NCBI RefSeq assembly: GCF_026672275.1
Contig: NZ_JANQCD010000010.1
Span: forward strand, 1-64,000
DNA: 64,000 nucleotides
Source of the DNA: Marinifilum sp. D737
Lineage (GTDB): Bacteria; Bacteroidota; Bacteroidia; Bacteroidales; Marinifilaceae
Direction: 5' to 3'
Made by a program: the position numbers and the translations under genes. How positions within the stretch are numbered: position 1 is the stretch's first letter; each line of letters begins with the position of its first letter. The notes beneath the pieces were generated by a model. It was not told the origin of the DNA and ran no database searches. It saw nothing but the letters and a program-made list of their open reading frames with translations. Positions 9,893 through 50,983 of this stretch are shown piece after piece.

Positions 9893-10599
9893 TTTCTTCT
9901 ATTTTAAATATATTACACCCCACACTTCAAAAGAGGTCAACAAACAACAATTCAGAGCACTTAACTACTCCTGAAAACGATTTCAAGATACCTGAAAGCA
10001 TCACCTCATACAAACCAAGCCTGTCCCAAATATCCATTTCGGCACACCAGCAAAGCAAAAAGCCCTAAAACGCATTGATACACTACACTTTAAAAAACCG
10101 TACAATATCTTCCGTACGATTTTACACACGGTAAAAACACCATTAATAATCGCTCGTTAATGCAGCTCTTCTTTTGATTTTCTGTGTATTACCAACACCA
10201 AACACCAAACCACTTGATTTATATGGAGATAATAGATTTTCCTACCATCCATAATTTTCCGAACAATTGTAACACTCATAACAACAAGGAAATTAAACCA
10301 GTTGCATTTTTTGAAACCCACAACACACCTTCTTTTACCATTTGATCTACTGACACTTACAAAACTTTACCGCGAGAAAAGTGCCAGAATTGAAAAAGTC
10401 CTCCACTCCACAGTACGCAATTCATAATTTTAAATGCATTTCATAGAAAAATCATGCAAGAATAAAGCAGTCTCTCTTTGAGATGCAATGAAAAACAACA
10501 CTGGGAAGTTTACTGCCGATTCAATCTTTCAAAGACAAAATTTGATGATTGAAATAGTCGGAGAATGCCAGGTATCATTAACGAAAAAACAAGAATCAT
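9893..10599. promoter_or_regulatory. Divergent promoter region between the two lyase operons
   Basis: 707 bp without a gene, so both lyase runs must start here. It holds two CCGTAC repeats 14 bp apart (10098-10103 and 10112-10117), followed by a perfect TTTTAC-acacg-GTAAAA inverted repeat (10120-10136). A GTGCCA-containing stretch (AAAAGTGCCA, 10377-10386) occurs again at 18896. A segment at 10024-10053 resembles one at 20043-20073 upstream of the TonB receptor gene. These are candidate operators; the regulator is not identified. Confidence 0.6.
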
Positions 10600-19889: not shown

Positions 19890-20158
19890 GCACTCATACC
19901 TCGTATCACTTTAAAAAAAGTGCACTTATAAACTATGAAGTCTTCCTGATTTCAGGAAAACAAAAGAACTACTATTCCTACCACTTCTAATAAAAGAGTT
20001 ACAGTATCCTTGCTAATTAAGCCTAAAAAAGTTTTCATTCTATCCCAAATCCCATTTTTGGCACTTCCCAGCACTCTAAATCCACCTGAAACACATTCTA
20101 TTTCCATTTATTCGTGCCAAGTTAATTTTCAAAATATTAATTCTGGAAAAATTAAAAT
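19890..20158 (+). promoter_or_regulatory. Upstream region of the TonB-dependent receptor gene
   Basis: About 270 bp without a gene. TCCCAAAT-CCATTTTTGGCAC-AGCA (20043-20073) resembles the segment at 10024-10053 in the divergent lyase promoter region. GTGCCA cores occur at 20114-20119 and, on the opposite strand, at about 20059-20064. This is a possible shared operator between this gene and the lyase operons. Confidence 0.4.
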
Positions 20159-22607: not shown

Positions 22608-25466
22608 CTACTTCTCCTGCTTTTCCAGATATTCACTAGGAGTTAAATCGGTAAACTTCTTAAAAATTCTGTAGAAAGAGGTTTTCGAGTTAAAACCACA
22701 ATCTTCGGCAATTGCCAGCAGAGTATAATCTTTATTCTGGGGATCCTGTAAACGGCTCTTTACTTCATCTACCCTATAAGTATTAATAAAATCGTTAAAA
22801 CTGATTTGTAAGCCATCACGCAAGGTGTTTGAAAGCTGTACTTCACTCCAGGAAAGCTGAATGGCCAATTGTGACTTGGTCAATCGTTTATCGAGATAAG
22901 GCTTTTCTTCCTCCATAAATTGATTAAGAGTTTTAATACTTTCCTCCCACTCCTTCTTTTTAGTTGCTGGAGCTGCCTTTTTGGTCACCACCTTAGCCTT
23001 TACGTTTTTTCTTCCTCCTTTCTTTCTGTGATTTGCATACACTAAAGCTCCTGCCGATAAAATGGATGCAAGTACTAAGAGATAAAGCAACCATGAATAT
23101 TGTTTCCAGTTCCTGTTCACAACAATCATCAGGACTGCAGGAGATGAGCTCCATTTCATATGATTATTGGACACCAATACTTCAAGCTGATGTTCACCAA
23201 TAGCCAGTTCAGGAATTACAATCTTATGTTCTCCCAAAGGCAATAGAGTCCAGGTGGTATCTAATGAAGAAATACGATAGCGAATTCTGTTTTTTTCAGG
23301 TTCCCAATAAGACATGGAAGCTACCGCAACACTTAATTTCTGATCGGTATGATACAATTCAACTTTCTGCTGAAACACATCTCCTGATTCTCCTGAGTTT
23401 GAATAAGAGACAAATTGAGCCTCCGGAATGAAGGAATTCATTTTAAAGTGGGAAGGATAGAAAGAGTTCAGTCCATTATTTCCTCCGAAATACATTTGTC
23501 CGCTGGTATCAATGCAAGCCACCTTGTATTCAAAAATATTCCCTTGTAAGCCATCTTCCTGATAAAAATTGGCAAACTGCTTTTTCTCCACATCAAAGCT
23601 GCTTAATCCTTTATTGGTGCCAAGCCACAAACGGTTCTTTTCATCCTCCAGTATACTCAACACCACGTTTCCGGGTAGTCCGTCCTTCTCATCAAAGCTG
23701 ATAAAGGTGTCTTCTTTTTCGTTGTAGAGGTTGAGTCCATTACTGGTAGCAATCCACAAGCTTCCTTTGCTGTCTTCAAAAATATCGTACACCCTGTTAC
23801 TCGACAAACTGCCTTTTTTATTTGAAGCTCTGTAGCTCTGAAACCTGGTCTCTCCTCTTTTTAAACGACAGAGACCTCCCATGTGGCATGACACCCAGAT
23901 GTCACCATTGGTCACCTGCGAGATCACTTTTACATTTTGATTTGTCAGATCATTTTTTTCCTTGTTCAAAAGCTCTATACTTCCCTTTTGGGGATTCCAT
24001 TTCCAGATTCCCTTATCAAGTTCGGAAAACCAGTAATTCCCTTCATCATCCTCCAGGATCTCAAATACACTCTTTTGGAAAAACAGTTTCCCCTTTGCCG
24101 TAAAGTTTTCAAATATCTTGCTCCTCGTATTGTATTTTAACACTCCTGCATCGGTACCAAAGAACACCTGCCCTTTGCTATCTACATAAGCCGTTCTAAC
24201 CGTCTTGTGTTTTTTCTTCCTCTTGGTAGCTTGGCTCACTTTAGCTGGCCTAAATTCTTTTTTAACCGGATCAAAATGGCTTATGCCATCCCTCATCATG
24301 CCAACCCAAACATTGCCCAGTGTGTCAGAAACTACTGCGCGTAAAGTATTGTCGGGTAAAGAATATTTATTTTGCGGAATATTCTGATACAATTCGAAAG
24401 GCAGGTTGTTAGGCGAAAAATAGTTGATTCCCTGCATAGTTCCCACCCAAAAACTTCCAGACCTCTCACTCATAACTGCCAGAATGTTATTGCTAGAGAT
24501 ACTCTCTTTCAATAGGGGATGATGCTGGTAATTGTAGAATCTTTCTTCCTCTCGATCAAAGAAATTCAATCCCTTTTTGGTTCCGATCCAAAGATTTCCT
24601 TTTTCATCATCATTAATGGCAGTGATGTAGTTGTCAGACAAACTATACTTATTTCCTTCCGAATGACGATAAGTAACAAAACTCTCATCTTTATCCTGAA
24701 ACAGATTCAAACCTCCCGCTGTAGCAATCCAAATTTTGCCTTCTCTATCCTTAAACAAATCTTCTACATAGTTAGAAATCAGCTCCCCGTCTTTTCTTTT
24801 TCTGGATCGACGAAAGTGCTGTTTCTTTTTCTTCTTTATATCTAAAACCGTAATTCCATTTCCTGCCGTACCAATCCATAGGTGCCCATTCTTATCGAAA
24901 CACAACTCATTAATTAAGCGCTCTCCTTTCGAGTAACTTACAGTTTCACTATTAAAGGGAAAGTGTTCATATTGTTCAAACTGATCCTGTTCTCTATTGA
25001 ATTTAAACAATCCATTACGTGTACCAGCCCATATTTCATTGCTTCCTGAAATAGCCAAATCATTCACATAAAGGCTTTGTGCTTTATTAACTTCAAAGGG
25101 CATCAGATAGTATTTCATCTTCCCCGTTTCCCGATTCAGAAAAACCACCCCAATTTGGGTAGCCATCCAAATATTCTGATCCTTGTCCTCTATGAGCGCA
25201 TTGATTCTTTGATCGGCAATCCTGGTAAAAGGAACCTGAGGTAAGGGGTAATTGACAATTTGATAACCATCGTAACGATTCAAGCCTTCTTTGGTTCCCA
25301 GCCATATCAATCCTTTTGAATCTTGCAGCATGGAGTACACAACGTTCGAATGCAAACCATCAGAAGTGGTAAACTTTTGAAAACGAATCTCCTTACCCTT
25401 TGCATCTGTATGCATAAACAGCAAACAAGCAAAAACCAAAGCCAATATGTACTTTATCAATGTCAT
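22608..25466 (-). CDS. Membrane-spanning sensor fused to an AraC DNA-binding domain, no kinase
   Basis: 952 residues. Signal/anchor (1-22), a double propeller of Reg_prop repeats (about 25-680; recurring LWIGT and NLWIGTKKGLNFF-type blades), a Y_Y_Y domain (about 690-765), one transmembrane helix (about 775-795, WLLYLLVLASILSAGALVY), a basic linker rich in Lys, and a C-terminal AraC-type helix-turn-helix (about 835-950; LAIAEDCGFNSKTSFYRIFKKF). Histidine kinase, ATPase and receiver domains are absent although the periplasmic half is like a hybrid two-component system. It would sense a periplasmic oligosaccharide and act directly on DNA from the membrane. It converges with the TonB receptor gene and lies beside the second sus/GH88 unit; target genes are unknown. 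Confidence 0.88.
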   Translation of the reverse strand: MTLIKYILALVFACLLFMHTDAKGKEIRFQKFTTSDGLHSNVVYSMLQDSKGLIWLGTKEGLNRYDGYQIVNYPLPQVPFTRIADQRINALIEDKDQNIWMATQIGVVFLNRETGKMKYYLMPFEVNKAQSLYVNDLAISGSNEIWAGTRNGLFKFNREQDQFEQYEHFPFNSETVSYSKGERLINELCFDKNGHLWIGTAGNGITVLDIKKKKKQHFRRSRKRKDGELISNYVEDLFKDREGKIWIATAGGLNLFQDKDESFVTYRHSEGNKYSLSDNYITAINDDEKGNLWIGTKKGLNFFDREEERFYNYQHHPLLKESISSNNILAVMSERSGSFWVGTMQGINYFSPNNLPFELYQNIPQNKYSLPDNTLRAVVSDTLGNVWVGMMRDGISHFDPVKKEFRPAKVSQATKRKKKHKTVRTAYVDSKGQVFFGTDAGVLKYNTRSKIFENFTAKGKLFFQKSVFEILEDDEGNYWFSELDKGIWKWNPQKGSIELLNKEKNDLTNQNVKVISQVTNGDIWVSCHMGGLCRLKRGETRFQSYRASNKKGSLSSNRVYDIFEDSKGSLWIATSNGLNLYNEKEDTFISFDEKDGLPGNVVLSILEDEKNRLWLGTNKGLSSFDVEKKQFANFYQEDGLQGNIFEYKVACIDTSGQMYFGGNNGLNSFYPSHFKMNSFIPEAQFVSYSNSGESGDVFQQKVELYHTDQKLSVAVASMSYWEPEKNRIRYRISSLDTTWTLLPLGEHKIVIPELAIGEHQLEVLVSNNHMKWSSSPAVLMIVVNRNWKQYSWLLYLLVLASILSAGALVYANHRKKGGRKNVKAKVVTKKAAPATKKKEWEESIKTLNQFMEEEKPYLDKRLTKSQLAIQLSWSEVQLSNTLRDGLQISFNDFINTYRVDEVKSRLQDPQNKDYTLLAIAEDCGFNSKTSFYRIFKKFTDLTPSEYLEKQEK

Positions 25467-25552
25467 TCCTCTATTTAAACGATTACTATTTTAAGAACAG
25501 CCTAAAAATAATATTTCAATCTCTGACAAAGAATCAAAACCATTATTATTAT

Positions 25553-25592
25553 AAAAAAAAAGCTCTCTTAAAGTAAAATACCTAAGAGAGCT
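25553..25592 (-). terminator. Rho-independent terminator after the second GH88 gene
   Basis: Perfect 10-bp stem AGCTCTCTTA (25561-25570) and TAAGAGAGCT (25583-25592). In the minus direction it is followed by a run of eight or more T. It ends the sus/GH88 transcript. Confidence 0.92.
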
Positions 25593-25669
25593 TCGTACCA
25601 AATGAATGTATTCAACCTGAAGGTTTCACACATTTATTTCATAATAATTTCATATTTGTACCATCGGAC

Positions 25670-32508: not shown

Positions 32509-34335
32509 TTATTTACGCAATGCTTTTACTTCGAAATTATATATGCAATGATTACGAGTTGCACTATCAATATTGATTCCTGAAGAAGCAAGAGTCTCAT
32601 GGTGTAAAGCAATGGTTACTACTTTACCATCGAATTGACTTAAATCAACAATTCTTTCCTGACAGTTTCCATTTGCTAATGCCTCATAACTAATCTCTAC
32701 CCAAGTTGCAGTAGTAACATCGCCAGTAAAATCTTCAGACACTTTTAATTTTAAAGTCTGTCCATCTAATCCATACTTATAATAACCTGCAAATGTTAGT
32801 TCTGAATTAAGACAATTGCTTAAATCTACATTCTCTGCCAGCAACCAATCATCATTTTCTGATTTCTTAGGAATAATAATGGCACCTCTCGAGCCAATTA
32901 CTTGGTCAAGATCCAAAACAGTCCAATTACCCCATCCATAAGTCCACTTGTTATTATCTGCCTGAACAGGATCACCAACAATTGAAACGGTAGTCATATT
33001 TCCTAATCCTTTTTCACCAGCCTTAGGAGACACGTCATCCCAACCATCTTCAAATACAACTTCAAAAGTTGGAACCTGAATGGTTACAGTAATTACATCG
33101 GTAAAAGTAACCTCACCTTTAATGTTCGTAGCTTTTACAGATAAGGTATATTCACCAATAGCAAGATCATTTCCCTCAGCAAGGCTAATTACACCTGTGT
33201 TCTGATCAATTGCAAATGCTCCTTTGTCATCAACAAGCGCATAAGTAATAGGTGTTGTTCCTACCACTGTTGGTTGTACTGACTCGAATGCAAAAGATTC
33301 GTTAACCACATATGCTGACTTTGAATATTGTAGATCAGAAGGCAATACTGCTTTGATTTCTACAATCTGGAAAGAAGCTGCATTTTCAAACTCTACACTT
33401 CCGTGAGCATTAGTAGCGACAACAGTAAGATTATAGGTATTAATTTCCAATGAATGATTTTCCGGCAATGAAATTACTCCTGTATTTTCATCAATGGTAA
33501 ATGATCCAAAATCGTCTTTCAATGCGAAAGTAAATGGACCTGTTCCAGCTACAGTAGGTTGAGCACTTTGCTTTGCCTGTAATTGCTGTACATCCAAATA
33601 TCCCTGAGGTGAGTATACCAAATTGTATGCTTTGGTTTCAACTTTCACCATAACTACCTCTTTAAATTCAGCTACACCTGCAGCATTTGATACATTCACA
33701 GATAGCTTATAGTTTCCAGCTTCAATATCTGAATTCAAAGCCAATGAAATCTCACCGGTTTCAGCATTTATAGCAAAATCACTTTCTCCTTCTAATGAAA
33801 AAGTAGCAGGTTGGCTTCCTTTAAATAAAGGCTTGCTTGTTTTCTGTCCTTCAGCTCCACGAACAAGGGTCTGCATGTATGGTGCATACTGTAATCCCTC
33901 AATTGCACTTGGAAGAATTCTAAACTCAACAGCTTCAGGAAAAACTTGCTCACCAACTTTGTTGCTTACCTTCACATTCAGTTTGTATAAACCAGCTACC
34001 AACTCGTTATCATTAGCTAAGCTAATTACCCCGGTTGAATCCTTAATGGTAAATACATCCTCTACATAAACACCACCCTCTTCGGCAGTACCTTCCACAA
34101 TTTCAAAAATTGGTTGAGAATCTGAAAAAACTACAGGTTGTGAAGTTTCCATTGCCTTTCCTTCGTATACTTCGGTAACTGAAGCATAACATAAACCACT
34201 TGGAGCCAAAACGTCTTCTGCAGATTCACTGTCATCATCGCAAGAATATGCAATTACTGAAAGCAAGGCGAATGCCACTGCCAACCATTTGGATCCAAAA
34301 CGCCATTTGTTTTTACAATCGTTTGAATAATTCAT
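32509..34335 (-). CDS. Surface lipoprotein with four cadherin-like repeats and an anchor-J-type domain
   Basis: 608 residues. Lipoprotein signal ends IAYSC; the next residues (DDDSESAED) form an acidic surface-export-type signal, so outer-surface exposure is inferred. Four repeats of about 90 residues follow (about 45-415), each with an ITGVISLA/ETGEISLA-type strand and a GEYTLSVKATN-type strand (DENTGVISL, DQNTGVISL, NAETGEISL, KDSTGVISL). The last domain (about 420-608) is the jelly roll also found alone in the next gene. As first gene of the unit ahead of SusC/SusD it occupies the place of a surface glycan-binding protein: the repeats would act as a spacer and the final domain as binder. 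No known binding site is recognised. Confidence 0.82.
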   Translation of the reverse strand: MNYSNDCKNKWRFGSKWLAVAFALLSVIAYSCDDDSESAEDVLAPSGLCYASVTEVYEGKAMETSQPVVFSDSQPIFEIVEGTAEEGGVYVEDVFTIKDSTGVISLANDNELVAGLYKLNVKVSNKVGEQVFPEAVEFRILPSAIEGLQYAPYMQTLVRGAEGQKTSKPLFKGSQPATFSLEGESDFAINAETGEISLALNSDIEAGNYKLSVNVSNAAGVAEFKEVVMVKVETKAYNLVYSPQGYLDVQQLQAKQSAQPTVAGTGPFTFALKDDFGSFTIDENTGVISLPENHSLEINTYNLTVVATNAHGSVEFENAASFQIVEIKAVLPSDLQYSKSAYVVNESFAFESVQPTVVGTTPITYALVDDKGAFAIDQNTGVISLAEGNDLAIGEYTLSVKATNIKGEVTFTDVITVTIQVPTFEVVFEDGWDDVSPKAGEKGLGNMTTVSIVGDPVQADNNKWTYGWGNWTVLDLDQVIGSRGAIIIPKKSENDDWLLAENVDLSNCLNSELTFAGYYKYGLDGQTLKLKVSEDFTGDVTTATWVEISYEALANGNCQERIVDLSQFDGKVVTIALHHETLASSGINIDSATRNHCIYNFEVKALRK

Positions 34336-34384
34336 TGAATTAACGTTTTGATATTAGATTAGTATTAGATTTTCAACATCGTTC

Positions 34385-34465
34385 CGAAAACGACTGCGTA
34401 AATGTATCTTTGCTGGTAAAGGACAATGTGACATTTTTATTCAAAACATGTCCAATATCATTCAA
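34385..34465 (-). promoter_or_regulatory. Two-block promoter element upstream of sus unit 2
   Basis: Block 1 (34385-34407) and block 2 (34440-34465) each match a block upstream of the other sus unit (39560-39582 and 39614-39639): 20 of 23 and 23 of 26 positions, with 32 and 31 bp between blocks. In the minus direction block 1 contains TACATTTA, close to the Bacteroidota -7 consensus TAnnTTTG, placing block 2 (core GATATTGGACATGTTTTGAA) just upstream of the -33 region, where an activator would bind. The hybrid two-component system at 40.1 kb is the natural candidate. Confidence 0.7.
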
Positions 34466-34674
34466 CTACCACCTTTCAAGTACGATAATCCAACTAACCA
34501 CACGTTTTTCACCCATGTATGAATAATTTTGGATGCAAAAATATCAAAGTTAAAATCTTCTCAAACTTTTTATAGACAGAGCACTATAAAAAAGAATCAT
34601 TACAAGCAGGAAGGAAATGCTCTAAGCAGTTGGTTTCACCTGTTGCACGAAACCATAATCAGGAAACAAAAGAA

Positions 34675-34742
34675 TCCCATCTCCAAACTGTATTGGAAAT
34701 GGGAATAGAAAATAAAAAGTCGGCACTTAGCGCACCGACTTT
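34675..34742 (-). terminator. Terminator after susD of unit 1
   Basis: AAAGTCGG (34716-34723) and CCGACTTT (34735-34742) form a stem followed in the minus direction by TTATTTTC. A second hairpin with one mismatch (TCCCATCTCCAA with TTGGAAATGGGA, 34675-34703) follows. It separates sus unit 1 from the promoter of unit 2. Confidence 0.82.
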
Positions 34743-34748
34743 CTTATA

Positions 34749-36278
34749 TTATAAATCAGGATTAATCAGAATATCCCTTGCCGGAATCGGGAACAGGTAT
34801 TTATCCTCTGTAATGGTTGACGGATCAAAATCACTGCGCTCATCGGCATGATTCATATTTGCCTCTTTAACCATTTTACGGCGAACCAAATCGTGCCAAC
34901 GCTTCATTTCGAATGCAAACTCCCAGGCACGTTCCTGAAGTACCACTGCATCGAACTCTTCTTTGCCAGCACCGGCAGCTAGCTTTTGACTTTCTACTTC
35001 ACTTCCCAGGTAAGCACGATCCTGAACCTCCCACAAAGCTGCATAGGCTTCAGCCGATGGAGATCCTTCTGCCAGGTTGGCTGCTTCAGCATAAATTAAT
35101 AATACATCAGCATAACGGAAAATCGGGAATAAACAGTTCGAAGTAGCTTCTTTCCAGGTAGCACCACCAATATCTCTGAATTTAGCAATGAAAGGGTGTG
35201 CTTCCACAGAGTTCTCCCACGAGAACCATTTAGACTCAGGCATCAGGTTCCCCTTCTTGTCATATTTAATGGTTTCATAAATGGTCCATTCCTTACGGTT
35301 ATCATTAGGATAGTTACGAGCAAACTCTTTTTCTACAAGAACTTCTCTCCAACCGCCTTCATCCTTACCACGGAAAGCCTTGTTTCCAAAACTACCATAG
35401 TTTCGATTTGAAGCAAAATCAGTATAAAACGCAAAAATGTGTTCACTTTCAGAAAGTCGATCTTCATAAGTCCAAAGGGTAGAAAAATCATTTTCCAATT
35501 GGTAATTTCCTGCGTCAATCACCTCTTTTGCCTTATCGGCAGCCTTCTGGTAGTATTCGGCACCTTTCTCCAACGGCCAACCTGCCATGTGAAGATATAC
35601 ATAGGAAATCAGAGTCTTTACAGCTCCCAAGGTAGGACGTCCTTTTTCAGCCTGCGTTGCTGGCAATGTCTTTTCTGCTTCCAAAGCATCAGCCAAAATA
35701 AACTCATACACCTCTTCAACAGACGATTTTGTTACATTTTGTGCATCGCCGCCATTCATTAACTCTTTTACAATTGGCACTTCACCCCAGTAACGCACCA
35801 GGTTGAAATAGGCAAAAGCTCTCATAAATCGAACTTCGGCAATACGATCCTCTTTTAACTCATCTGACATTGGAATCTCCTGAATTCTATCCAGATTATT
35901 CAGTACATTGTTGGCAGCACCAATTCCTCGGTACAAAGCCTTCCAAACCATTTCCAGGTCATTGTTCTCGGTAGAAACTTCGAAATCATCGAATTCAAGC
36001 AGTCTTTGCTTGTTCAAGCCTCGCGTTGAAGTAATATCATCAGCACCACAATTCAATCCCCAGCCTCTTCCACTTAAACCACTCAAGCGACTGTTATCCT
36101 TATAGATGTAGGTGTAAATAGGGTAAATTGCAGCATCTAGTTCCTGCTGTGTGGAAAAATAGTTGTCCGGACTTAAAAGGTATGCATCCTCTTCCTCCAG
36201 AAAATTACAGCCCCCCAACAGGCCCAAGCTAATTACCAAGCCAAAGCCAATATTTAATTTATTTATAAATTTTTTCAT
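34749..36278 (-). CDS. susD: SusD-like outer-membrane lipoprotein (unit 1)
   Basis: 509 residues from the ATG at 36278; the longer open frame would begin with TTG and delay the signal peptide. Lipoprotein signal ends LLGGC, followed by NFLEEEDAYLLSPDNYFST, which is acidic and consistent with surface export. SusD features: ALYRGIGAANNVLNNL, RFMRAFAYFNLVRYWGEVP, LFPIFRYADVLLIYAEAANLAEG and FEMKRWHDLVRRKM. It forms the binding lid of the SusC encoded just upstream (94 bp, with a weak hairpin). Ligand is inferred as an oligosaccharide from the locus. It is well diverged from the unit 2 SusD. Confidence 0.97.
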   Translation of the reverse strand: MKKFINKLNIGFGLVISLGLLGGCNFLEEEDAYLLSPDNYFSTQQELDAAIYPIYTYIYKDNSRLSGLSGRGWGLNCGADDITSTRGLNKQRLLEFDDFEVSTENNDLEMVWKALYRGIGAANNVLNNLDRIQEIPMSDELKEDRIAEVRFMRAFAYFNLVRYWGEVPIVKELMNGGDAQNVTKSSVEEVYEFILADALEAEKTLPATQAEKGRPTLGAVKTLISYVYLHMAGWPLEKGAEYYQKAADKAKEVIDAGNYQLENDFSTLWTYEDRLSESEHIFAFYTDFASNRNYGSFGNKAFRGKDEGGWREVLVEKEFARNYPNDNRKEWTIYETIKYDKKGNLMPESKWFSWENSVEAHPFIAKFRDIGGATWKEATSNCLFPIFRYADVLLIYAEAANLAEGSPSAEAYAALWEVQDRAYLGSEVESQKLAAGAGKEEFDAVVLQERAWEFAFEMKRWHDLVRRKMVKEANMNHADERSDFDPSTITEDKYLFPIPARDILINPDL

Positions 36279-36319
36279 TTGATTATCATTTATCTTCAAT
36301 TGCCAAATGGAAGCCTAAA

Positions 36320-36342
36320 GGAAAATTGAGCAAGCATTTTCC
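36320..36342 (-). terminator. Short hairpin between susC and susD of unit 1
   Basis: GGAAAAT (36320-36326) and ATTTTCC (36336-36342) with a 9-base loop. It is weak on its own but lies in the same position as the 13-bp hairpin in the other sus unit. Confidence 0.45.
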
Positions 36343-36372
36343 ATATTCAACTCCATAGCTTCTGAGTTTTAT

Positions 36373-39300
36373 TTAAAAAGTAAGGTTAATACCAAAATTA
36401 AACACTTTAGCCAAAGGATATGGAGCACGGTCAAAACCTACAAGGTAGTCAGCATTATTTGCCCCTCCAGGGTTATTCACTTCAGGATCGTAACCTCTGT
36501 AATCGGTAGATGTCCATAAATTCTGTCCACTTACAAACACACGCATCTTTTCAATGTTATAACGCTTTAGTACCGATTTACTAAATGTATAACCCAATGA
36601 AATATTGCTTAAACGGATATAAGATCCATCCTCTACAGTTGCAGATGAATTATCCAGATAAGAAGTTTTATAAGTCGTGCTAAATGCAGGAATTGAATTG
36701 CTTGGATTTTCAGGAGTCCAACGGTTCTGAATATCAACGTTTGTAGGGTCCTGATTTCCCCAACCCATTGAACGGCTATACACTTCATTCTTGATATCAT
36801 TTCCAAATGTACCTGTAAACAAGATATCCATATCGAAATTTTTATAGGTGAATGAGTTTGACCAGCCCATATTCCATTTTGGATATCCATAACCAATTAT
36901 CGTGCGGTCGTCAGCAGTGATAGACTTGTCATTATTCACATCAACAAATCTTGCATCACCAGGCTTGTTACCATATACCGCTGCCTTATCGGCTTGATCT
37001 TGCTGCCATACACCGTCAAATTTATATCCATAAATCAAACCTAACGACTTTCCTTTCTGAATCAATGCAAGTGCATTATTCTCACCCATGATGATCTTTT
37101 CAGAATCTCCCAAATCCATCACTTTGTTTCGGTTGATACTCACAGTAACATTACTGCTCCATTTCAACTCGCCAAACGAATGGTTGGTTCCCAGGTCAAA
37201 TTCAATACCCTTATTCTCAACCTCTCCCAGGTTCTTGAATTCCGATTTGAACCCTGTATAGTAAGGAACAGCCACTTCCAACAACAAATCTTTTGTTTTC
37301 TTATAGTAGTAATCAGCAGTTAATGACAATTTTCCGTTGAATAATACAAGGTCGAAACCAAAGTCTACCTGAGCGGTTTTCTCCCAAGATAGGAATGGAT
37401 TATTTGAACGAGCAGGAGCAATTCCTACACTAACTCCAGAACCATCAATAGGATAATTTACACCAGTGCTCATTAAACCTTTAGACTGATATGGAGCAGT
37501 AGCCTGAGAACCTGTAACACCAAAGCTGGAACGCAATTTCAGGTTATCAAGGAAATCCAAATCTTTCATAAATGATTCCTCAGACAGACGCCATGCGAAA
37601 GATCCACTTGGGAAATATCCCCATTTGTGATTGTCAGCAAACTTCGACGAACCATCAGCTCTCATGGCAAGAGTCACCAAATACTTGTTGTTGAATACAT
37701 AGTTTAAACGTCCTAAAAATGACATTAACTGCCAATCAACAAAAGAAGAAGATGGCGACAATGGCTCTTTACCCAAAGACACATCATAGAATCCATTTTC
37801 AACATCAAAATTTTTCACTGCCAAAGCTGAAGCTTGTGTCTTCGAACCAGTTTGCTCATTCACAAAAGTAAAGTTGATTTTATGTTTTCCAACTTGATTC
37901 TTATAGGTTAAGATATTGGTATTCTGCCAAACAAATTCCTTACGGTTATTAATATTGGCTCTACCATTGTCTCCTTCACCAGCGTAAAGATTCACACTTG
38001 AATACATATTAGAAACGTAATCTCTGGTGCTATAACCTCCAGATACTCTCACATTCCATTTATCATTGATTTGATAATCGAAATATGCATTGATATTTTG
38101 CTTCACGTTATCGATGTAATGGTTTTGCTCCTTATAGTCTGCTACCGGATTCGATACCGTTGCAAAAGATGAACGTGTATAATTTCCCTCCTCGTCGTAA
38201 ATAGGAAGAGTAGGCTCCATGGTAATGGCATCATTAGAGATAGATCCGTTTGGCCAGCTCAACTTGTGAGGTCTGTCCTTACTAAGGATTCCATTGATAC
38301 GAACCCCCATCTTCAACTTCTCAGAAAGATCTACATCAACATTAGCACGATAGCTAAATCTCTCATAGTTTGAATTTTTAAGAATCCCTTCCTGATTCAA
38401 ATACTGACCAGAAAACAAGAAATTGAATCCATTCTTTTTCCCACTTACCGATAAATCATGATTGTGAGTCAAAGCTGTACGATACACCTCATCTTGCCAG
38501 TCTGTACCACCATTTCTTTTGAAATTCTCAATCTGCTCAGCAGAATACTCTTCAGCACCTCCTGTTTGAACACGTTTTTGGTTGATTACCTCAGCATAAG
38601 AAGCCGCATCTAACAGGTCCATTTTATTTGCTAATTGCTGAACTCCCATGTAACCATTGTAGCTCACCTGCATTTTTCCATCTTTTCCCCCTTTTGTGGT
38701 TACAAGAATTACCCCATTGGCGCCTCTGGAACCATAAATTGCAGTTGCCGATGCATCTTTCAACACTTCCAAAGATTCAATATCATTCGGATTCAAATCA
38801 GAAAGAGATTGACCAATAAAACCATCCACAATTACCAAAGGAGCATTGCTACCATTGATAGAATTTGTTCCACGAATTCTAATTTTAATATCTCCCCCTG
38901 GAGCGCCACTGTTCGACTGAACAGAAACCCCTGATAATTTCCCTTGCAGCGCCTGACTTACATTTGGTGTTTGGATGTCCACAATCGATTCCGCTGAAAC
39001 ACGAGAAGTAGCCCCAGTCAGGTCACTTTTGCGCATGGTTCCATATCCAATGGCAACCACTTCATCCAATCCCACATTATCAGCCTGCAACTCAACATTA
39101 ATGCTTTGCTGAGTTCCTACTTTAACCTCCTGTGTTTTCATCCCAACAAAAGAGAAAATCAAAATATCCTCAGCAGTAGGGACAGTCAATACATACTTTC
39201 CATCTAAATTGGTGGTAGTACCAATAGAAGTTCCTTTCACAATAACGGAAGCTCCTGGTACTCCTAATCCATCTTCAGCCAATGTAACAATTCCGGAAAC

Positions 39301-39375
39301 GGATCGTTCTTGTGCTTGTAGAAATTGTACCCCTACAATAAAGAGGCATACAAACAGTCCAATAGTTTTTTTCAT
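36373..39375 (-). CDS. susC: SusC-like TonB-dependent transporter (unit 1)
   Basis: 1000 residues. Signal peptide (1-21, LQAQ), carboxypeptidase-regulatory-like domain (about 25-98; SGIVTLAEDGLGVPGASVIVKG), hallmark EVVAIGYGT near 107, plug (about 115-225; GAPGGDIKIRIRGTNSI, LKDASATAIYGSRGANGVI) and barrel ending FNFGINLTF. It imports oligosaccharides with the SusD that follows. It is the first gene of its transcript; the conserved two-block element lies 185-265 bp upstream. The nearby hybrid sensor gene ends 741 bp away on the same strand, the classic order of a regulated sus unit. Confidence 0.97.
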   Translation of the reverse strand: MKKTIGLFVCLFIVGVQFLQAQERSVSGIVTLAEDGLGVPGASVIVKGTSIGTTTNLDGKYVLTVPTAEDILIFSFVGMKTQEVKVGTQQSINVELQADNVGLDEVVAIGYGTMRKSDLTGATSRVSAESIVDIQTPNVSQALQGKLSGVSVQSNSGAPGGDIKIRIRGTNSINGSNAPLVIVDGFIGQSLSDLNPNDIESLEVLKDASATAIYGSRGANGVILVTTKGGKDGKMQVSYNGYMGVQQLANKMDLLDAASYAEVINQKRVQTGGAEEYSAEQIENFKRNGGTDWQDEVYRTALTHNHDLSVSGKKNGFNFLFSGQYLNQEGILKNSNYERFSYRANVDVDLSEKLKMGVRINGILSKDRPHKLSWPNGSISNDAITMEPTLPIYDEEGNYTRSSFATVSNPVADYKEQNHYIDNVKQNINAYFDYQINDKWNVRVSGGYSTRDYVSNMYSSVNLYAGEGDNGRANINNRKEFVWQNTNILTYKNQVGKHKINFTFVNEQTGSKTQASALAVKNFDVENGFYDVSLGKEPLSPSSSFVDWQLMSFLGRLNYVFNNKYLVTLAMRADGSSKFADNHKWGYFPSGSFAWRLSEESFMKDLDFLDNLKLRSSFGVTGSQATAPYQSKGLMSTGVNYPIDGSGVSVGIAPARSNNPFLSWEKTAQVDFGFDLVLFNGKLSLTADYYYKKTKDLLLEVAVPYYTGFKSEFKNLGEVENKGIEFDLGTNHSFGELKWSSNVTVSINRNKVMDLGDSEKIIMGENNALALIQKGKSLGLIYGYKFDGVWQQDQADKAAVYGNKPGDARFVDVNNDKSITADDRTIIGYGYPKWNMGWSNSFTYKNFDMDILFTGTFGNDIKNEVYSRSMGWGNQDPTNVDIQNRWTPENPSNSIPAFSTTYKTSYLDNSSATVEDGSYIRLSNISLGYTFSKSVLKRYNIEKMRVFVSGQNLWTSTDYRGYDPEVNNPGGANNADYLVGFDRAPYPLAKVFNFGINLTF

Positions 39376-40115
39376 TAGATCATAAATTGTTTAGAGCGGT
39401 AGATGGCATCCAAATCATCAATACATAATTTGAATACTTCTCTAACCAGGTTTAGTAAAAGCAAGTCATCACAAATATTCTACTCCCAAAGACAGTTTTT
39501 GAAACCATCAAATCGTTTCCGTCTGCTTAATTTCAGAATATTTGTATAACTTATAGTTTCGCAAACGAATGCATAAATGTATGATCAGTACAAAATGAGC
39601 CTTTATAATTTTGTTCAAAACATTTCCAAAATCATTCGAGAAGCAAAAACAAACCGTTTATAGCCTGATTATTGGATAATTTGAGCATATGGTTGGATAA
39701 TAATGGATGTGGTTTTTCACATAAAAAACAACAATCCTCTTTTAAGATAAACAGCTATTAAAATTATGTTGGTGCTGAAAGCAAGCCTGAACATCGTCTG
39801 AAATAACCAAACAAAACTTCAGAAAAAGAAAAACCGCATTTTTAAAGGCTTGGCAATTACTTCTATTCAAATTACAGCGTCTCCAAGCGAATTTGGCGAT
39901 CACTTTATGCGCATAAGATGTTGTTCACCAAATTACCATTAACTACTTCCCTGCCGTTCTGTTAGGCTTTTTTTGAAATTAAATTTCAATTCCTGATGAT
40001 AAACTGAGTCGGATGAAAACCAGATGTTATACTAAAAGGAAATCCTATTCACCTGTAAAAAGAAAACCCCGTACTCTACAAGAGTGCGGGATTTTCCTTG
40101 AATATCTATTTCAAT
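39376..40115 (-). promoter_or_regulatory. Promoter region of sus unit 1
   Basis: 740 bp without a gene. The two conserved blocks (39560-39582, 39614-39639) shared with the other sus unit lie here. Further upstream, TTGGATAAT occurs twice (39672-39680 and 39693-39701), 21 bp apart, i.e. on the same helix face, as expected for AraC-type sites. A perfect TTGAAATT-A-AATTTCAA palindrome lies at 39973-39989, function unknown. The rest holds nothing I recognise. Confidence 0.65.
40056..40090 (-). terminator. Terminator of the hybrid two-component system gene
   Basis: CCCGTACTCT (40068-40077) pairs with AGAGTGCGGG (40081-40090) with one wobble, followed in the minus direction by TTTTCTTTTT. It lies 25 bp after the gene's stop. 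Confidence 0.88.
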
Positions 40116-43100
40116 CTAATCATTTTCTACCTTAGGATCTTCTCCCTTGGCATACCTCGATGGAGAAATCTTAAAATGATCGCTAAAGCATTTGCTAAAA
40201 TATCGGGGCGTTGTAAAACCTACCGAATAGGCAACCTCAGAAACACTCACGCCCATTTCCGATCGGAGCATTACAGCGGCCTTTTTCAATCGACTACTCA
40301 ATATGAATTCATTCGGAGTTTGCCCTGTAATTCCTTTTATTTTGGCATATAAACTTGTACGGCCCAGGCACATTTCCTGTGCAAACTGGTTGACATCAAA
40401 CTTAGAGTTATCGAGATTCTCTTCAATCACCTTCATGGCCTTCTCCAAAAGCTCAGCATCCAATGAATTGGAAGTAATGTTTCTCACCCCAATACCTGGA
40501 TTTGTTCTGAACTTATCTTGCAGCAAGGCTCTTGATTTGATTAGGTTTTTACATCTCGCCTGAAGCAGTTTCATATTGAAAGGCTTGGTAATGTAATCAT
40601 CGGCACCAATCTCCATTCCTTCAATTTTATATTCCAAGGCATCTTTAGCAGTTAAAAGGATGATTGGAATATGACTTGTATTCAAATCCGTCTTTAATTT
40701 TTCGCACATCTCAGTACCCGTTAATACAGGCATCATCACATCACTAATAATTAGGTCGGGCTGTATTTCAATGGCTTTCTCCAAGCCTTTCTGTCCGTTT
40801 TCAACCCCAATTACCGTGTAATGTTCGGCAAAGGAAGAGCACAACATATCGCGCACTTCAAAATTATCTTCCACGATTAACAAAGTCGGATTTGTTGATA
40901 AGCCAGTTGTTTCAGGCAATTTACTGTCTGATTCCTCCATCTGATCGGCAAGTATTTTTGTATTGGAACTAAGTTCAAATTCGAACTCTTCGTCCCAAAT
41001 AACATTTTCGTCATCGAAATGCTCTTTCCCCTTAGGCAAGTAGACTTCGAAACAAGAACCCTCGTCGGCTTTGCTATCAACCTTTATTTCGCCTCCATGA
41101 AGATCTACAATCCCTTTTGTTAGCGCCAATCCGATTCCTGATCCCAGGTGTTGATGTTTTTGCTGGCTCAAATGGTCAACCTGGTAGAATCGATCAAAAA
41201 TCTTATCCAAATATTCCTCAGGCATTCCTTTTCCAGAGTCCATTACTTTCACAACCACCTGCTTTTCCAGGTTATCCAGCAACAGGTATACAGAGCCTCC
41301 ATCGTCGGTAAATTTAAAGGCATTGGATAGCAAGTTAAACAGTACTTTTTCCAACTGCCTTGCATCGAACCACAATGGAATACTTTGCTGATGACATACC
41401 AATTTAAAACTAATATCTCTTCGTTGTGCATACTCTTTAAAAGAGTCATATATACTATTGGTAAATTCTACGAAATCATGCTCATTTACTCTTAATTTCA
41501 CATAGCCAAGCTCCTGTTTTCTGAACTCCAACAGCTCATCAACCAAGTTCTTCAATCGATAGGAATTCTTAAATGCGACCAAAATTTTGTTGTAGATTTT
41601 GGGAGCGACACCAGATTCATCCAACAGCCCTTCCAATTGCCCGAGGATCAATGTAAGGGGCGTTCTAAACTCGTGAGATATATTGGTAAAGAATCTCAAT
41701 TTTGATTGATTCAACTCTCTGATTCTTTCCTTATCAACCTGCTCCTTTTTCAAATTCTCCTCCAAAATGGCTTTTGAAATTAATACTCGGTTGATGTAGA
41801 TTAAAATACTGGCAACAAATGCCAAATACAGCAAGTAAGCCCACCAGGTATTGTAAAAAGGAGGATCAATTTTAATATCCATTTGTGCCATTGGCCCGTG
41901 TGTACCATCTCGATACACCTCTCTCACCATAAAGGTATAGTCTCTGGGAGGCAAATTGGTATAACTTACAGTTCTTCGGTATCCCGCATCTACCCAGTTT
42001 TCATCAAAACCTTCCATTAAATACTGGTACTGCGATTTGTTTGCCTTTAAGTAGTTGAATGAAGTAAAATCGAAAGAGATTACGCTATGTCTGTGATTTA
42101 GGTTGATTTTCTCAGTAAAAGGCAATGTTTTGCTTAAAATCTCACTCTCATCGCCCACACGTACCACTTTGTTGTTTACTTTCAAGGAAGTAAAATAGAG
42201 AGGATGGCTAATGCTTTGATTTTGCAATTCCTTTTCCCAAAAGGAAACCATACCATGAATTCCGCCAACAAAGACTTCTCCATCTGAAGTAATATACAAT
42301 CCTCTTTCGTTGATTTCACCAAGCGGGAAACCACTTTCGTAGTCGTAAGCTCTGAATACTTCCTCTTCAACGTCGAACTTACTAATCCCTTTACTGGTAG
42401 CAACCCAAAGAAATCCGTATCTCGATTCTGTAATCCCATAAATAAAATCAGACGGCAAGTCATAATTCTTGCTAGAGTATACTTTGAAACTATCATCTTC
42501 GGGCAGATAACGATTCAAGCCTCCACCAGAGGTAGCAATCCAAATTCGTCGCATATGATCCTGGTAGATCTGATAAACGAAATCACTACTTATATTGGCA
42601 TGCTGACTATCTCTTCTGTAATTCTTAAGATCTCCTGACTTTACATCAAAAACACTTAAACCTTTTGTTTCTGAACCAATCCATAATCTGTCATTCTTAT
42701 CGAGTAGCAAAGCAAGGATTTTTTGCCCTACCAGCTGCCTTTGTTCCTCGTCTTCGAAGAAATCAGTAAACCTTTCCGTTATGGGATCGAACAATACCAC
42801 TCCTTGGTTGGTTCCAAGTATTAGTTTCTTTTTATAAGGGATAATAGCTGAAATGATGTTACTAGGGATGGAATATGACTGCTGATCATTTTTTAAATAC
42901 TTTTTTATTCGGCCGGTTTTAATATCCAGAACATTAAGACCTCCCATATGCGTTCCTATCCACAAGCTATTGTCATTATCTAAATATAAACTTTTGGCAT
43001 TGTTGTTTGATAAACTTTTAACACCTTCCCCTTTGGTGATATAGGTAAAACGTTTTTCCTTTCTATCGTAGAAGTTCACACCTCCCCCTTCTGTTGCAAT

Positions 43101-44147
43101 CCACAGATTCTTGTCATCGTCCTCTAACATCGATCCCACAACACGGTAATTGATAGACTTGTTATACTCGGGATCAGCAACAAAATATCTGAATATATTG
43201 GTTTTAGGATTATAGATATTCACCCCACCAAAATAGGTTCCAATCCAAATACTCCCCTCATGGTCGCGAAACATGGTATAGATTGAATTATGACTAAGGG
43301 CATTGGGGTTTTTATCAGACTGGTAATAATTAGAGAACTTCTGACTTTTTGTGTCCAAAACACTAACGCCAAGGAAAGTTCCAATCCAGATTCTCCCTTC
43401 CCGATCTTCTGAAATATCACGAACTACATTGTGAGCTAAGCCTGTATTTTGAGTATGGTGTTGTAATACCTTTTCTTTATAGATTTCATATACCCCATTG
43501 TTCTTTGTTCCTACCCAAATGGTATCTGTTTTACTTTTATAAATACAGGAAACTTCATCTTTTAATATGGTCTTAAGGCTCCCATTGTTCACTTGATTAA
43601 TCAAGAGTCCTTTGTCCTTCATTCCCAAAAAAAGATCTCCATTATCGTCCTCGTAAATCTCAACTACACTGTTCTCTTCTGTATGTATATCCTTAACAGG
43701 AGTAAATTCAGATTTTGTTTCATCTAATCGAAACAATCCGATATCAGTTCCCACCCAAATGTCTTTTTTACCAATGTAAAAGCAATTTACATCCTCATGA
43801 GGGTAGTTAATCAACTCGTCAGTCTCAATGTTATAAGTCGATAAACCTTCCTCTGTTAAGATCCAAATTCGATTTCTGGAATCAAATTGCAGATCCCGGA
43901 TATTATTCCCCAAAATACTATTGGGATTCTCCCTCTCATGACGAAACACATCTATTTCGTAACCATTATACCTGTTCAATCCATCACGTGTCCCAATCCA
44001 CATGGTACCCAGATGATCCTGCTCAAGTGCAGTTACAGATATTTGGGACAAACCATCTTTCAAATCAATATGATCGAAATAGATATCCTGAGCCTGACAA
44101 ATCAAGATCTCCAGCAAAAAAACGAATAGAAGAAAGGTTTTTTTCAT
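40116..44147 (-). CDS. Hybrid two-component system (HTCS) sensor/regulator
   Basis: 1343 residues in one chain: signal peptide (1-19), periplasmic double propeller of Reg_prop repeats (about 25-690; repeated IWIGT/LWIGS), Y_Y_Y domain (about 700-775), transmembrane helix (about 785-805, WWAYLLYLAFVASILIYI), histidine kinase with His825 (NISHEFRTPLTLI), ATPase domain (GSGIGLALTKG), receiver with Asp1136 (PDLIISDVMMP) and AraC-type helix-turn-helix at the C-terminus (VSEVAYSVGFTTPRYFSKCF). Full length for the family. It senses a periplasmic oligosaccharide, in related Bacteroides loci an unsaturated disaccharide made by the lyases, and activates the locus. Likely targets are the two sus units with the shared upstream element; this link is inferred. 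Confidence 0.96.
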   Translation of the reverse strand: MKKTFLLFVFLLEILICQAQDIYFDHIDLKDGLSQISVTALEQDHLGTMWIGTRDGLNRYNGYEIDVFRHERENPNSILGNNIRDLQFDSRNRIWILTEEGLSTYNIETDELINYPHEDVNCFYIGKKDIWVGTDIGLFRLDETKSEFTPVKDIHTEENSVVEIYEDDNGDLFLGMKDKGLLINQVNNGSLKTILKDEVSCIYKSKTDTIWVGTKNNGVYEIYKEKVLQHHTQNTGLAHNVVRDISEDREGRIWIGTFLGVSVLDTKSQKFSNYYQSDKNPNALSHNSIYTMFRDHEGSIWIGTYFGGVNIYNPKTNIFRYFVADPEYNKSINYRVVGSMLEDDDKNLWIATEGGGVNFYDRKEKRFTYITKGEGVKSLSNNNAKSLYLDNDNSLWIGTHMGGLNVLDIKTGRIKKYLKNDQQSYSIPSNIISAIIPYKKKLILGTNQGVVLFDPITERFTDFFEDEEQRQLVGQKILALLLDKNDRLWIGSETKGLSVFDVKSGDLKNYRRDSQHANISSDFVYQIYQDHMRRIWIATSGGGLNRYLPEDDSFKVYSSKNYDLPSDFIYGITESRYGFLWVATSKGISKFDVEEEVFRAYDYESGFPLGEINERGLYITSDGEVFVGGIHGMVSFWEKELQNQSISHPLYFTSLKVNNKVVRVGDESEILSKTLPFTEKINLNHRHSVISFDFTSFNYLKANKSQYQYLMEGFDENWVDAGYRRTVSYTNLPPRDYTFMVREVYRDGTHGPMAQMDIKIDPPFYNTWWAYLLYLAFVASILIYINRVLISKAILEENLKKEQVDKERIRELNQSKLRFFTNISHEFRTPLTLILGQLEGLLDESGVAPKIYNKILVAFKNSYRLKNLVDELLEFRKQELGYVKLRVNEHDFVEFTNSIYDSFKEYAQRRDISFKLVCHQQSIPLWFDARQLEKVLFNLLSNAFKFTDDGGSVYLLLDNLEKQVVVKVMDSGKGMPEEYLDKIFDRFYQVDHLSQQKHQHLGSGIGLALTKGIVDLHGGEIKVDSKADEGSCFEVYLPKGKEHFDDENVIWDEEFEFELSSNTKILADQMEESDSKLPETTGLSTNPTLLIVEDNFEVRDMLCSSFAEHYTVIGVENGQKGLEKAIEIQPDLIISDVMMPVLTGTEMCEKLKTDLNTSHIPIILLTAKDALEYKIEGMEIGADDYITKPFNMKLLQARCKNLIKSRALLQDKFRTNPGIGVRNITSNSLDAELLEKAMKVIEENLDNSKFDVNQFAQEMCLGRTSLYAKIKGITGQTPNEFILSSRLKKAAVMLRSEMGVSVSEVAYSVGFTTPRYFSKCFSDHFKISPSRYAKGEDPKVEND

Positions 44148-44349
44148 AGGTTACAGGTGTTTTTTGACAACAAGATTGAGTCTTTCTTGTTGCAACAAAT
44201 TAAATCATTTCCTAGCGCATTCAAAAATTAAATAGACCGGTATACTTATCTGATATACTGCTATTAAACATTACCACCAACAATTCTCACTTTATCTATT
44301 TAACAGTCTCAAGTTTTACTTGATAAATTCTATTAAATAGATCTAAAAA
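44148..44349 (-). promoter_or_regulatory. Upstream region of the HTCS gene
   Basis: About 200 bp between the HTCS start and the terminator of the MFS operon. No copy of the sus two-block element and no other motif I recognise, which fits constitutive low expression of the sensor. Confidence 0.3.
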
Positions 44350-50660: not shown

Positions 50661-50756
50661 TGCTAACTATTTTTATAATTTGAAAAATTTTAATCGAGTA
50701 ATGTAACCTGTTTTATCACCTCTCGATGGATACAAAGAAAGAAAATGCAATTGAAT

Positions 50757-50772
50757 TGTGCAATCGATTGTC
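50757..50772. promoter_or_regulatory. LacI-type operator 1 (kduI side)
   Basis: GTGCAATCGATTGTC contains the perfect palindrome CAATCGATTG (50761-50770) with a central CG, as usual for LacI-family sites. It lies about 100 bp upstream of the kduI start. Confidence 0.72.
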
Positions 50773-50891
50773 TTATTATTCTTCATTTTTACTTTTTTTA
50801 ATCGATATTGAAATACATTCAAAAAGCAACAAACATCTGCTTTTTAAAGCTTTTAGATAGTGTAATATTTTTTTTAATTTAAATTTAATCC

Positions 50892-50906
50892 GCGCAATCG
50901 ATTACC
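50892..50906. promoter_or_regulatory. LacI-type operator 2 (regulator side)
   Basis: GCGCAATCGATTACC shares GCAATCGATT with operator 1; its core is at 50895-50904. It lies about 78 bp upstream of the regulator start, so it could mediate autoregulation or, with operator 1, a DNA loop over about 134 bp. Confidence 0.7.
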
Positions 50907-50983
50907 TTTTGTTTGTCACTTTTAGGCTATTTATAAAAATTAATTGCATCTTTGCAACGTGAATTAATACCTCTATAATTAAA

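Follow-up and report, generated by a model that had tools for sequence, protein, structure and literature searches.

Background

At pBAD, AraC occupies directly repeated half-sites at a distance of 21 bp, with the inner half-site beside the polymerase, and a further operator lies upstream. In Bacteroides, hybrid two-component systems (HTCSs) form one of the major classes of regulator for glycan use (PMC11253607), and in B. thetaiotaomicron all 16 predicted HTCS motifs are direct repeats averaging 21 bp, a geometry that has been interpreted as dimers bound to a single face of the DNA (Ravcheev et al. 2013, PMC3878776). Among these motifs is that of BT3334 (HTCS_Hya), which the same study links to chondroitin sulfate/hyaluronan and in whose regulon it reports sulfatases (PMC3878776). 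Receiver-AraC halves bind promoters of polysaccharide utilisation loci (PULs) directly: HTCS response-regulator halves bind the bt4114 and bt4662 promoters in electrophoretic mobility shift assays (PMC11253607) and the BT0366 half binds the BT0365 promoter (PMC5061871), although these are other HTCSs responding to other glycans, and the accessible text of both reports gives no half-site geometry. Here we analyse a stretch of 64,000 nucleotides from Marinifilum sp. D737 (contig NZ_JANQCD010000010.1, positions 1 to 64,000; hereafter the window), which forms the start of contig C11 in a genome of 5.08 Mb, and describe an element shared by two SusC/SusD transport units of a PUL that also encodes an HTCS.

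The likeness to B. thetaiotaomicron is close, in that two same-strand sites about 21 bp apart precede the SusC/SusD operons of an HTCS-encoding PUL. The published motifs are single direct repeats, and the main text that presents them uses neither 'inverted' nor 'divergent' (PMC3878776), whereas the window has inverted half-sites upstream at a fixed distance. We consider that the shared element is probably an HTCS operator of the known direct-repeat kind, with predicted binding by the HTCS of the locus itself, and that the inverted half-sites may represent a new part of this otherwise known style. The arrangement also recalls AraC at pBAD in its direct repeat of 21 bp, its inner half-site next to the polymerase and its extra upstream operator, but differs in that an HTCS is a membrane-bound kinase fusion and the upstream operator is a nearby inverted repeat, with facing half-sites 47-48 bp apart, rather than a distant loop site.

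A predicted proximal operator

An earlier reading of the window (the original prediction) had noted two blocks shared by the regions upstream of both units, and both the match and its near-equal spacing hold: agreement is 20 of 23 positions between 34385-34407 and 39560-39582 and 23 of 26 between 34440-34465 and 39614-39639, the blocks being separated by 32 bp in the first copy and by 31 bp in the second. When the two intergenic regions are compared, the best two-block match (43/49) stands against a maximum of 33 and a mean of 30.7 in dinucleotide shuffles (n=60), and in the rest of the window every match to either block has at least 6 mismatches. The reading of block 1 as a -7 region in the minus direction is supported; the block combines a -7-like TACATTTA, on the minus strand in both copies (Table 1), with a conserved stretch past it. 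The view of block 2 as an activator site stands insofar as it belongs to an AraC-type direct repeat of 21 bp, but its borders cut through the true unit; the block consists of the first half-site of the proximal operator, O1, and just the first bases of the second, and the next 11 bp or so complete the pair. The element does precede both units, the first of which opens not with SusC but with the gene for a surface glycan-binding protein (SGBP).

Scanning with an AraC-type half-site matrix (consensus TTTGAATGATATTGGAA) gives 21 bp as the best period of O1 in all 14 promoters compared, N1E240 included. These are drawn, two each, from the window, Marinifilum fragile JCM 15579, Marinifilum sp. N1E240, Marinifilum breve and the metagenome-assembled genome Marinifilum sp. 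McD1.5, and, one each, from Ancylomarina euxinus M1P, Ancylomarina DW003, Labilibaculum OB13 and the unclassified Marinifilaceae BB29; the near-identical pair of M. flexuosum DSM 21950 was excluded, and the 14, being related, are not independent tests. Self-comparison of O1 in eight copies peaks at offsets of 10 and 21. Two aspects of this weigh against our reading, namely that the 21-bp repeat is clear in six of the eight copies (8-10/16) and weak in the two from N1E240 (5 and 7/16), and that the 10-bp offset scores as high as 21 bp. The 10-bp signal would fit the two helix-turn-helix (HTH) contacts of an AraC half-site.

When a direct-repeat scan was applied to the 18 gaps of at least 60 bp in the list of open reading frames (ORFs), the two element regions scored 35.6 and 33.5 and the other 16 gaps at most 5.3, random 400-bp stretches scoring below 10.6 in 99% of cases. 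The lyase-side gaps contain no O1-like repeat (best scores 5.1, 4.6, 0.6 and -0.9), and so the earlier statement that no comparable element precedes the lyase operons is confirmed. Autoregulation of the HTCS was considered and rejected; the gap upstream of its gene scores -3.0, and N1E240 lacks a counterpart to the block-2-like word at 44199-44224, which has 8 mismatches.

Conservation and specificity

A model of the whole element was built from 8 copies (own genome, M. flexuosum, M. fragile and N1E240) and used to scan genomes. There is no spread to many unrelated promoters, which the original prediction had given as refuting it: the own genome holds two full copies, its next match (E 0.12) is the SGBP-unit element read in mirror image, and weaker ones follow, with the limit that the filters were strict and that weak or single repeats can escape them, the sulfatase site described below among them. 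Across 57 genomes the element was found at E<=1e-6 in six, exactly those that encode an HTCS whose receiver-AraC half is 71-100% identical; the model had drawn on four of these but not on McD1.5 or A. euxinus. No element reaches this threshold in the five genomes that rank next by HTCS similarity (best match 45-55%), one of them (G023) giving a weak match at 0.003. Other weak matches include those in G048 (E 3e-4) and G055 (E 0.003), and the 10-kb G048 stretch encodes no relative of the window proteins.

Relatives of the HTCS with at least 69% identity occupy nine loci, one on a contig that ends 187 bp past the HTCS gene, and in all eight that could be tested the element directly follows the gene. 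This includes each of the four loci that contributed to neither model nor matrix (M. breve, DW003, OB13 and BB29; E 2e-28 to 5e-10). The element is kept in Marinifilum, Ancylomarina, Labilibaculum and the unclassified Marinifilaceae, and O1 is conserved together with the orthologous HTCS across these species. N1E240 retains both elements in diverged surroundings, where the locus proteins found are 51-94% identical, and A. euxinus carries the element between its HTCS and SGBP genes, no second SusCD unit having been found beside it.

Against this must be set the loci of 16 more distant HTCS homologues (35-41% identity), which have no strong copy, so that nothing shows the motif shifting with its regulator; the best direct-repeat scores there are 20.5 (L106), 20.1 (L110) and 19.6 (L115), above the frequent random level for that size. 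The core 16-mer with up to 3 mismatches occurs at 424 places in the genome, against 294 for a reversed control, and the operator core alone is therefore not specific. Single one-mismatch matches to the core were seen on other contigs at C59:33485-33505 and C83:12278-12293.

Which regulator may bind

The locus encodes two AraC-type regulators, and the most serious alternative is that the operator is real but owned by the second of them, a protein with the same kind of sensor that has no kinase or receiver match (E<=0.001) and hence lacks the HTCS domain set. This protein occurs in every element-bearing genome in which its region is seen, at the same locus in M. flexuosum, M. fragile, N1E240, A. 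euxinus and Labilibaculum and also in McD1.5, and is absent at E<=1e-100 from the 8 other genomes tested, while the available stretches of M. breve, DW003 and BB29 end short of its place. Since both regulators are present in every element-bearing genome with the region covered, gene co-occurrence cannot separate them, and the DNA-binding domain of the second regulator is itself conserved, at 70-97% identity, which also counts against assigning the site to the HTCS.

Position speaks differently, because the element directly follows the HTCS gene in every testable locus, whereas the gene for the second regulator sits behind the SGBP-SusCD unit, 9-14 kb off. Across the 8 relatives compared, the DNA-binding domain of the HTCS keeps 83-98% identity; it is the better conserved of the two in N1E240, A. 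euxinus and Labilibaculum, at 86-90% against 70-84% for its rival. In addition, the lyase-side gaps carry another shared motif. We therefore think ownership by the second regulator unlikely, and favour the HTCS as the predicted binder from its position beside the element and from the published HTCS geometry.

A putative inverted distal operator

The half-site scan also brought out a direct repeat on the opposite strand upstream of O1, which the original prediction had not mentioned and which we call O2. The matrix used to test it was derived solely from O1 sites and excluded the promoter under test (and its twin, for the window/M. fragile pair), the other relatives being kept. Within 120 bp upstream, inverted half-sites (p<1e-3) give 20 matches over 1456 positions where about 1.5 are expected, and all 20 fall in two places, namely -67 to -69 (12 matches, ten of them at -68) and -47 or -48 (8 matches). 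Over the same distance the same-strand control gives 3 matches, and the far control, 121-400 bp upstream, 6 and 4 matches over 3920 positions, with about 3.9 expected for each. Inverted half-sites stand at these fixed positions in 13 of 14 promoters; the outer one is present in 12, and 7 of these 12 have the inner one too.

The occupancy is uneven in a way that weakens the case, in that no more than one inverted half-site is seen in half of the promoters, and O2 is missing altogether from the susC promoter of McD1.5. The single inverted match of the Labilibaculum promoter, at -48, is ambiguous: it may be an inner half-site in the usual place with no outer partner, or an outer half-site two helical turns closer, a reading based on its sequence and on a weak partner in the repeat scan, under which Labilibaculum would tentatively share the four-half-site layout in a form two turns tighter. 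Same-strand half-site matches were noted near O2 in DW003 (at -61) and in the McD1.5 SGBP promoter (at -62 and -41). A model-free search for four half-sites upstream of 25 other SusC genes, one of which (L008) carried O1, gave no peak at period 21 or spacing 47, in a test that is insensitive, as spacing 47 is not prominent even in the window's own promoter, and that is of little weight for generality.

One explanation for O2 places it outside the activator circuit, serving a divergent promoter or an antisense RNA. The opposite orientation would suit such a role, and Bacteroides is known to make antisense RNAs at susC genes (PMC7366714); yet the outward strand shows TAnnTTTR at the matching distance in 0/14 promoters, and plus-strand ORFs of at least 150 aa are absent from the window between 22496 and 50983, which makes this quite improbable. 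Our own proposal, which is tentative and which we hold to be possible rather than likely, is that HTCSs may act as pairs of dimers on a mirror-symmetric operator of four half-sites. This would bring two membrane-bound sensor dimers together at a single promoter and so give a sharper switch. The operator would consist of two outward-pointing direct repeats of 21 bp whose facing half-sites are 47-48 bp apart, close to 4.5 helical turns. At the SGBP unit O2 might also cover the start of a basal promoter: TATTTTTG or TATTTTTA is found at the same place directly beside O2 in six of seven SGBP promoters, and the TATTTTTG box of the window is possibly a second, basal promoter covered by O2.

In the passages of the literature that we surveyed, we did not find an inverted second operator described for an HTCS. 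If the inverted operator does function, activation by an HTCS would require two dimers at each promoter; this could contribute to the switch-like induction of PULs, and operator prediction would change.

The predicted promoter and a proposed mechanism

Published primary-sigma promoters of Bacteroidota have TAnnTTTG at -7 and TTTG at -33 (PMC7366714). We located the -7 box as the first TA..TTT lying 32-38 bp past the G of the second half-site, and its distance from O1 is 35 or 36 bp in all 14 promoters, across a spacer that has diverged among them. The box reads TAnnTTTA in 14/14, the published G being replaced by A, which counts against our reading; the TA and TTT were forced by the search and the last base was free. 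There is no conserved -33 box (TTTG) in the 30 bases preceding the -7 box, and a missing -33 box under an adjoining activator site would fit activator dependence. Of the 24 columns that begin with the -7 box, 15 are invariant, ten of which owe nothing to the box search, and the stretch past the box has a nearly invariant pattern, CA-TCG-TT-C. A hairpin in these presumed first transcribed bases was rejected as a conserved feature, being predicted at the same place in six of seven SGBP copies and in 0/7 of the other promoters.

As to the binding protein, its phosphorylation, the direction of regulation and the start site, we infer the following scheme. A periplasmic oligosaccharide, probably from chondroitin sulfate or hyaluronan, would activate the HTCS, whose presumed phospho-acceptor residues, from sequence, are H825 and D1136. 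The receiver-AraC half would then bind O1 as a dimer, on two half-sites 21 bp apart and on one DNA face, next to RNA polymerase. Bound there, it would replace the missing -33 contact, and transcription would begin from the -7 box, at its distance of 35-36 bp; the inverted O2 would take up a further dimer, which would probably strengthen or sharpen activation.

The two conserved blocks might instead be the -35/-10 pair of a promoter for an extracytoplasmic function (ECF) sigma factor, working with no activator, and the TCGTTT in block 1 is faintly like an ECF -10 element. Blocks 31-32 bp apart lie too far from each other for a sigma factor, however, no ECF or anti-sigma match was obtained among the 26 proteins scanned out of the window's 35 ORFs of at least 150 aa, and block 2 belongs to a 21-bp repeat that follows the HTCS gene, so that we give this very little credence. 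That the element is a functionless leftover from a duplicated upstream region, as two SusCD units side by side might suggest, is scarcely credible given that both copies persist in N1E240 amid diverged DNA, that the genes following them, SGBP and SusC, match different Pfam families, and that the spacing is fixed while the spacer drifts.

Probable extent of the regulon

The original prediction suggested that the HTCS drives the transport units directly and that another regulator handles the lyases. The HTCS does remain the likely activator, but a restriction to transport is not supported, as the same genome has on contig C63 (L157:16636-16673) a third strong repeat of the O1 type (score 31.5), in front of a sulfatase gene. 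Counterparts of the repeat score 31.5 in M. flexuosum, 24.5 in M. fragile (scored for the repeat alone), 25.3 in N1E240 and 31.6 in A. euxinus; that of N1E240 falls within an ORF drawn from the first ATG, the start of which is uncertain. By eye, the sulfatase site has an AnnTTTG box preceded by C or G at about 35 bp, O2 was not found there, and the whole-element model scores it weakly (E 0.35). Given this repeat, the HTCS regulon probably extends beyond transport to one sulfatase operon or more, the lyases being controlled in another way, and the Marinifilaceae gain a defined predicted operator and candidate regulon members.

Separate control of the lyases receives indirect support from the second AraC-type regulator and from a distinct palindrome on the lyase side, TRTCCCAAAT ... 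ATTTNGGCAC, present in two copies (Table 1) and a candidate operator of a second regulator. Its TRTCCCAAA arm is found at the place of copy 1 in M. flexuosum, M. fragile, N1E240 and A. euxinus and at that of copy 2 in M. flexuosum and N1E240, and also at scattered other places; the whole palindrome, in a relaxed form, matches at three places in the genome, namely both window copies and one inside an ORF.

Gene content and other features

By domain match the locus encodes PL8 lyases, GH88-family proteins, a sulfatase, two SusC/SusD pairs and the two AraC-type regulators, an enzyme set that points to chondroitin sulfate or hyaluronan as the glycan target. The HTCS combines its propeller sensor, kinase, receiver and AraC HTH in a single chain. 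The SGBP unit runs in the order SGBP, a small gene with a sub-threshold DUF5017 match, SusC, SusD and GH88.

Table 1. Coordinates of the operators, promoter parts and genes discussed in the text (positions in the window).
Feature	Position	Strand	Remarks
O1 of SGBP-SusCD unit	34429..34466	-	half-sites 34450-34466 and 34429-34445, 21-bp direct repeat
O1 of SusCD unit	39603..39640	-	half-sites 39624-39640 and 39603-39619, 21-bp direct repeat
O2 of SGBP unit	34518..34534	+	outer half-site alone, opposite orientation; no inner half-site recognised
O2 of SusCD unit	39671..39708	+	half-sites 39671-39687 and 39692-39708, opposite orientation, 21-bp direct repeat
-7-like box TACATTTA of SGBP unit	34399..34406	-	36 bp from second O1 half-site
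-7-like box TACATTTA of SusCD unit	39574..39581	-	35 bp from second O1 half-site
Conserved stretch YGCANTCGTTTNCG past -7 box, SGBP unit	34383..34398	-	presumed first transcribed bases
Conserved stretch YGCANTCGTTTNCG past -7 box, SusCD unit	39558..39573	-	
Second candidate -7 box TATTTTTG	34536..34543	-	beside O2 of SGBP unit; putative promoter
HTCS gene	40116..44147	-	Reg_prop sensor, Y_Y_Y, HisKA, HATPase, receiver, AraC-type HTH; proposed activator
SGBP (BT4661-like) gene	32509..34335	-	opens downstream unit
SusC-like gene	36373..39375	-	SusD-like partner 34749-36299
Second AraC-type regulator	22608..25466	-	Reg_prop sensor and AraC HTH; candidate rival or lyase-side regulator
Lyase-side palindrome copy 1	10022..10045	.	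between DUF6250 and PL8 genes, lyase-divergent gap
Lyase-side palindrome copy 2	20041..20064	.	upstream of outer-membrane receptor gene 20159-22495

An Rfam scan of the window returned no family at its gathering score. A conserved inverted repeat with a T run (CTCTCTTA ... AAGAGAGCTTTTTTTT) lies in 25467-25669 and is likely to be the terminator of the SGBP-SusCD-GH88 unit. The gap 50661-50983, beside the gene for a LacI-type regulator, holds two conserved words of the form ATCGATTGCGC/ATCGATTGCAC, which are likely to be that regulator's own operators.

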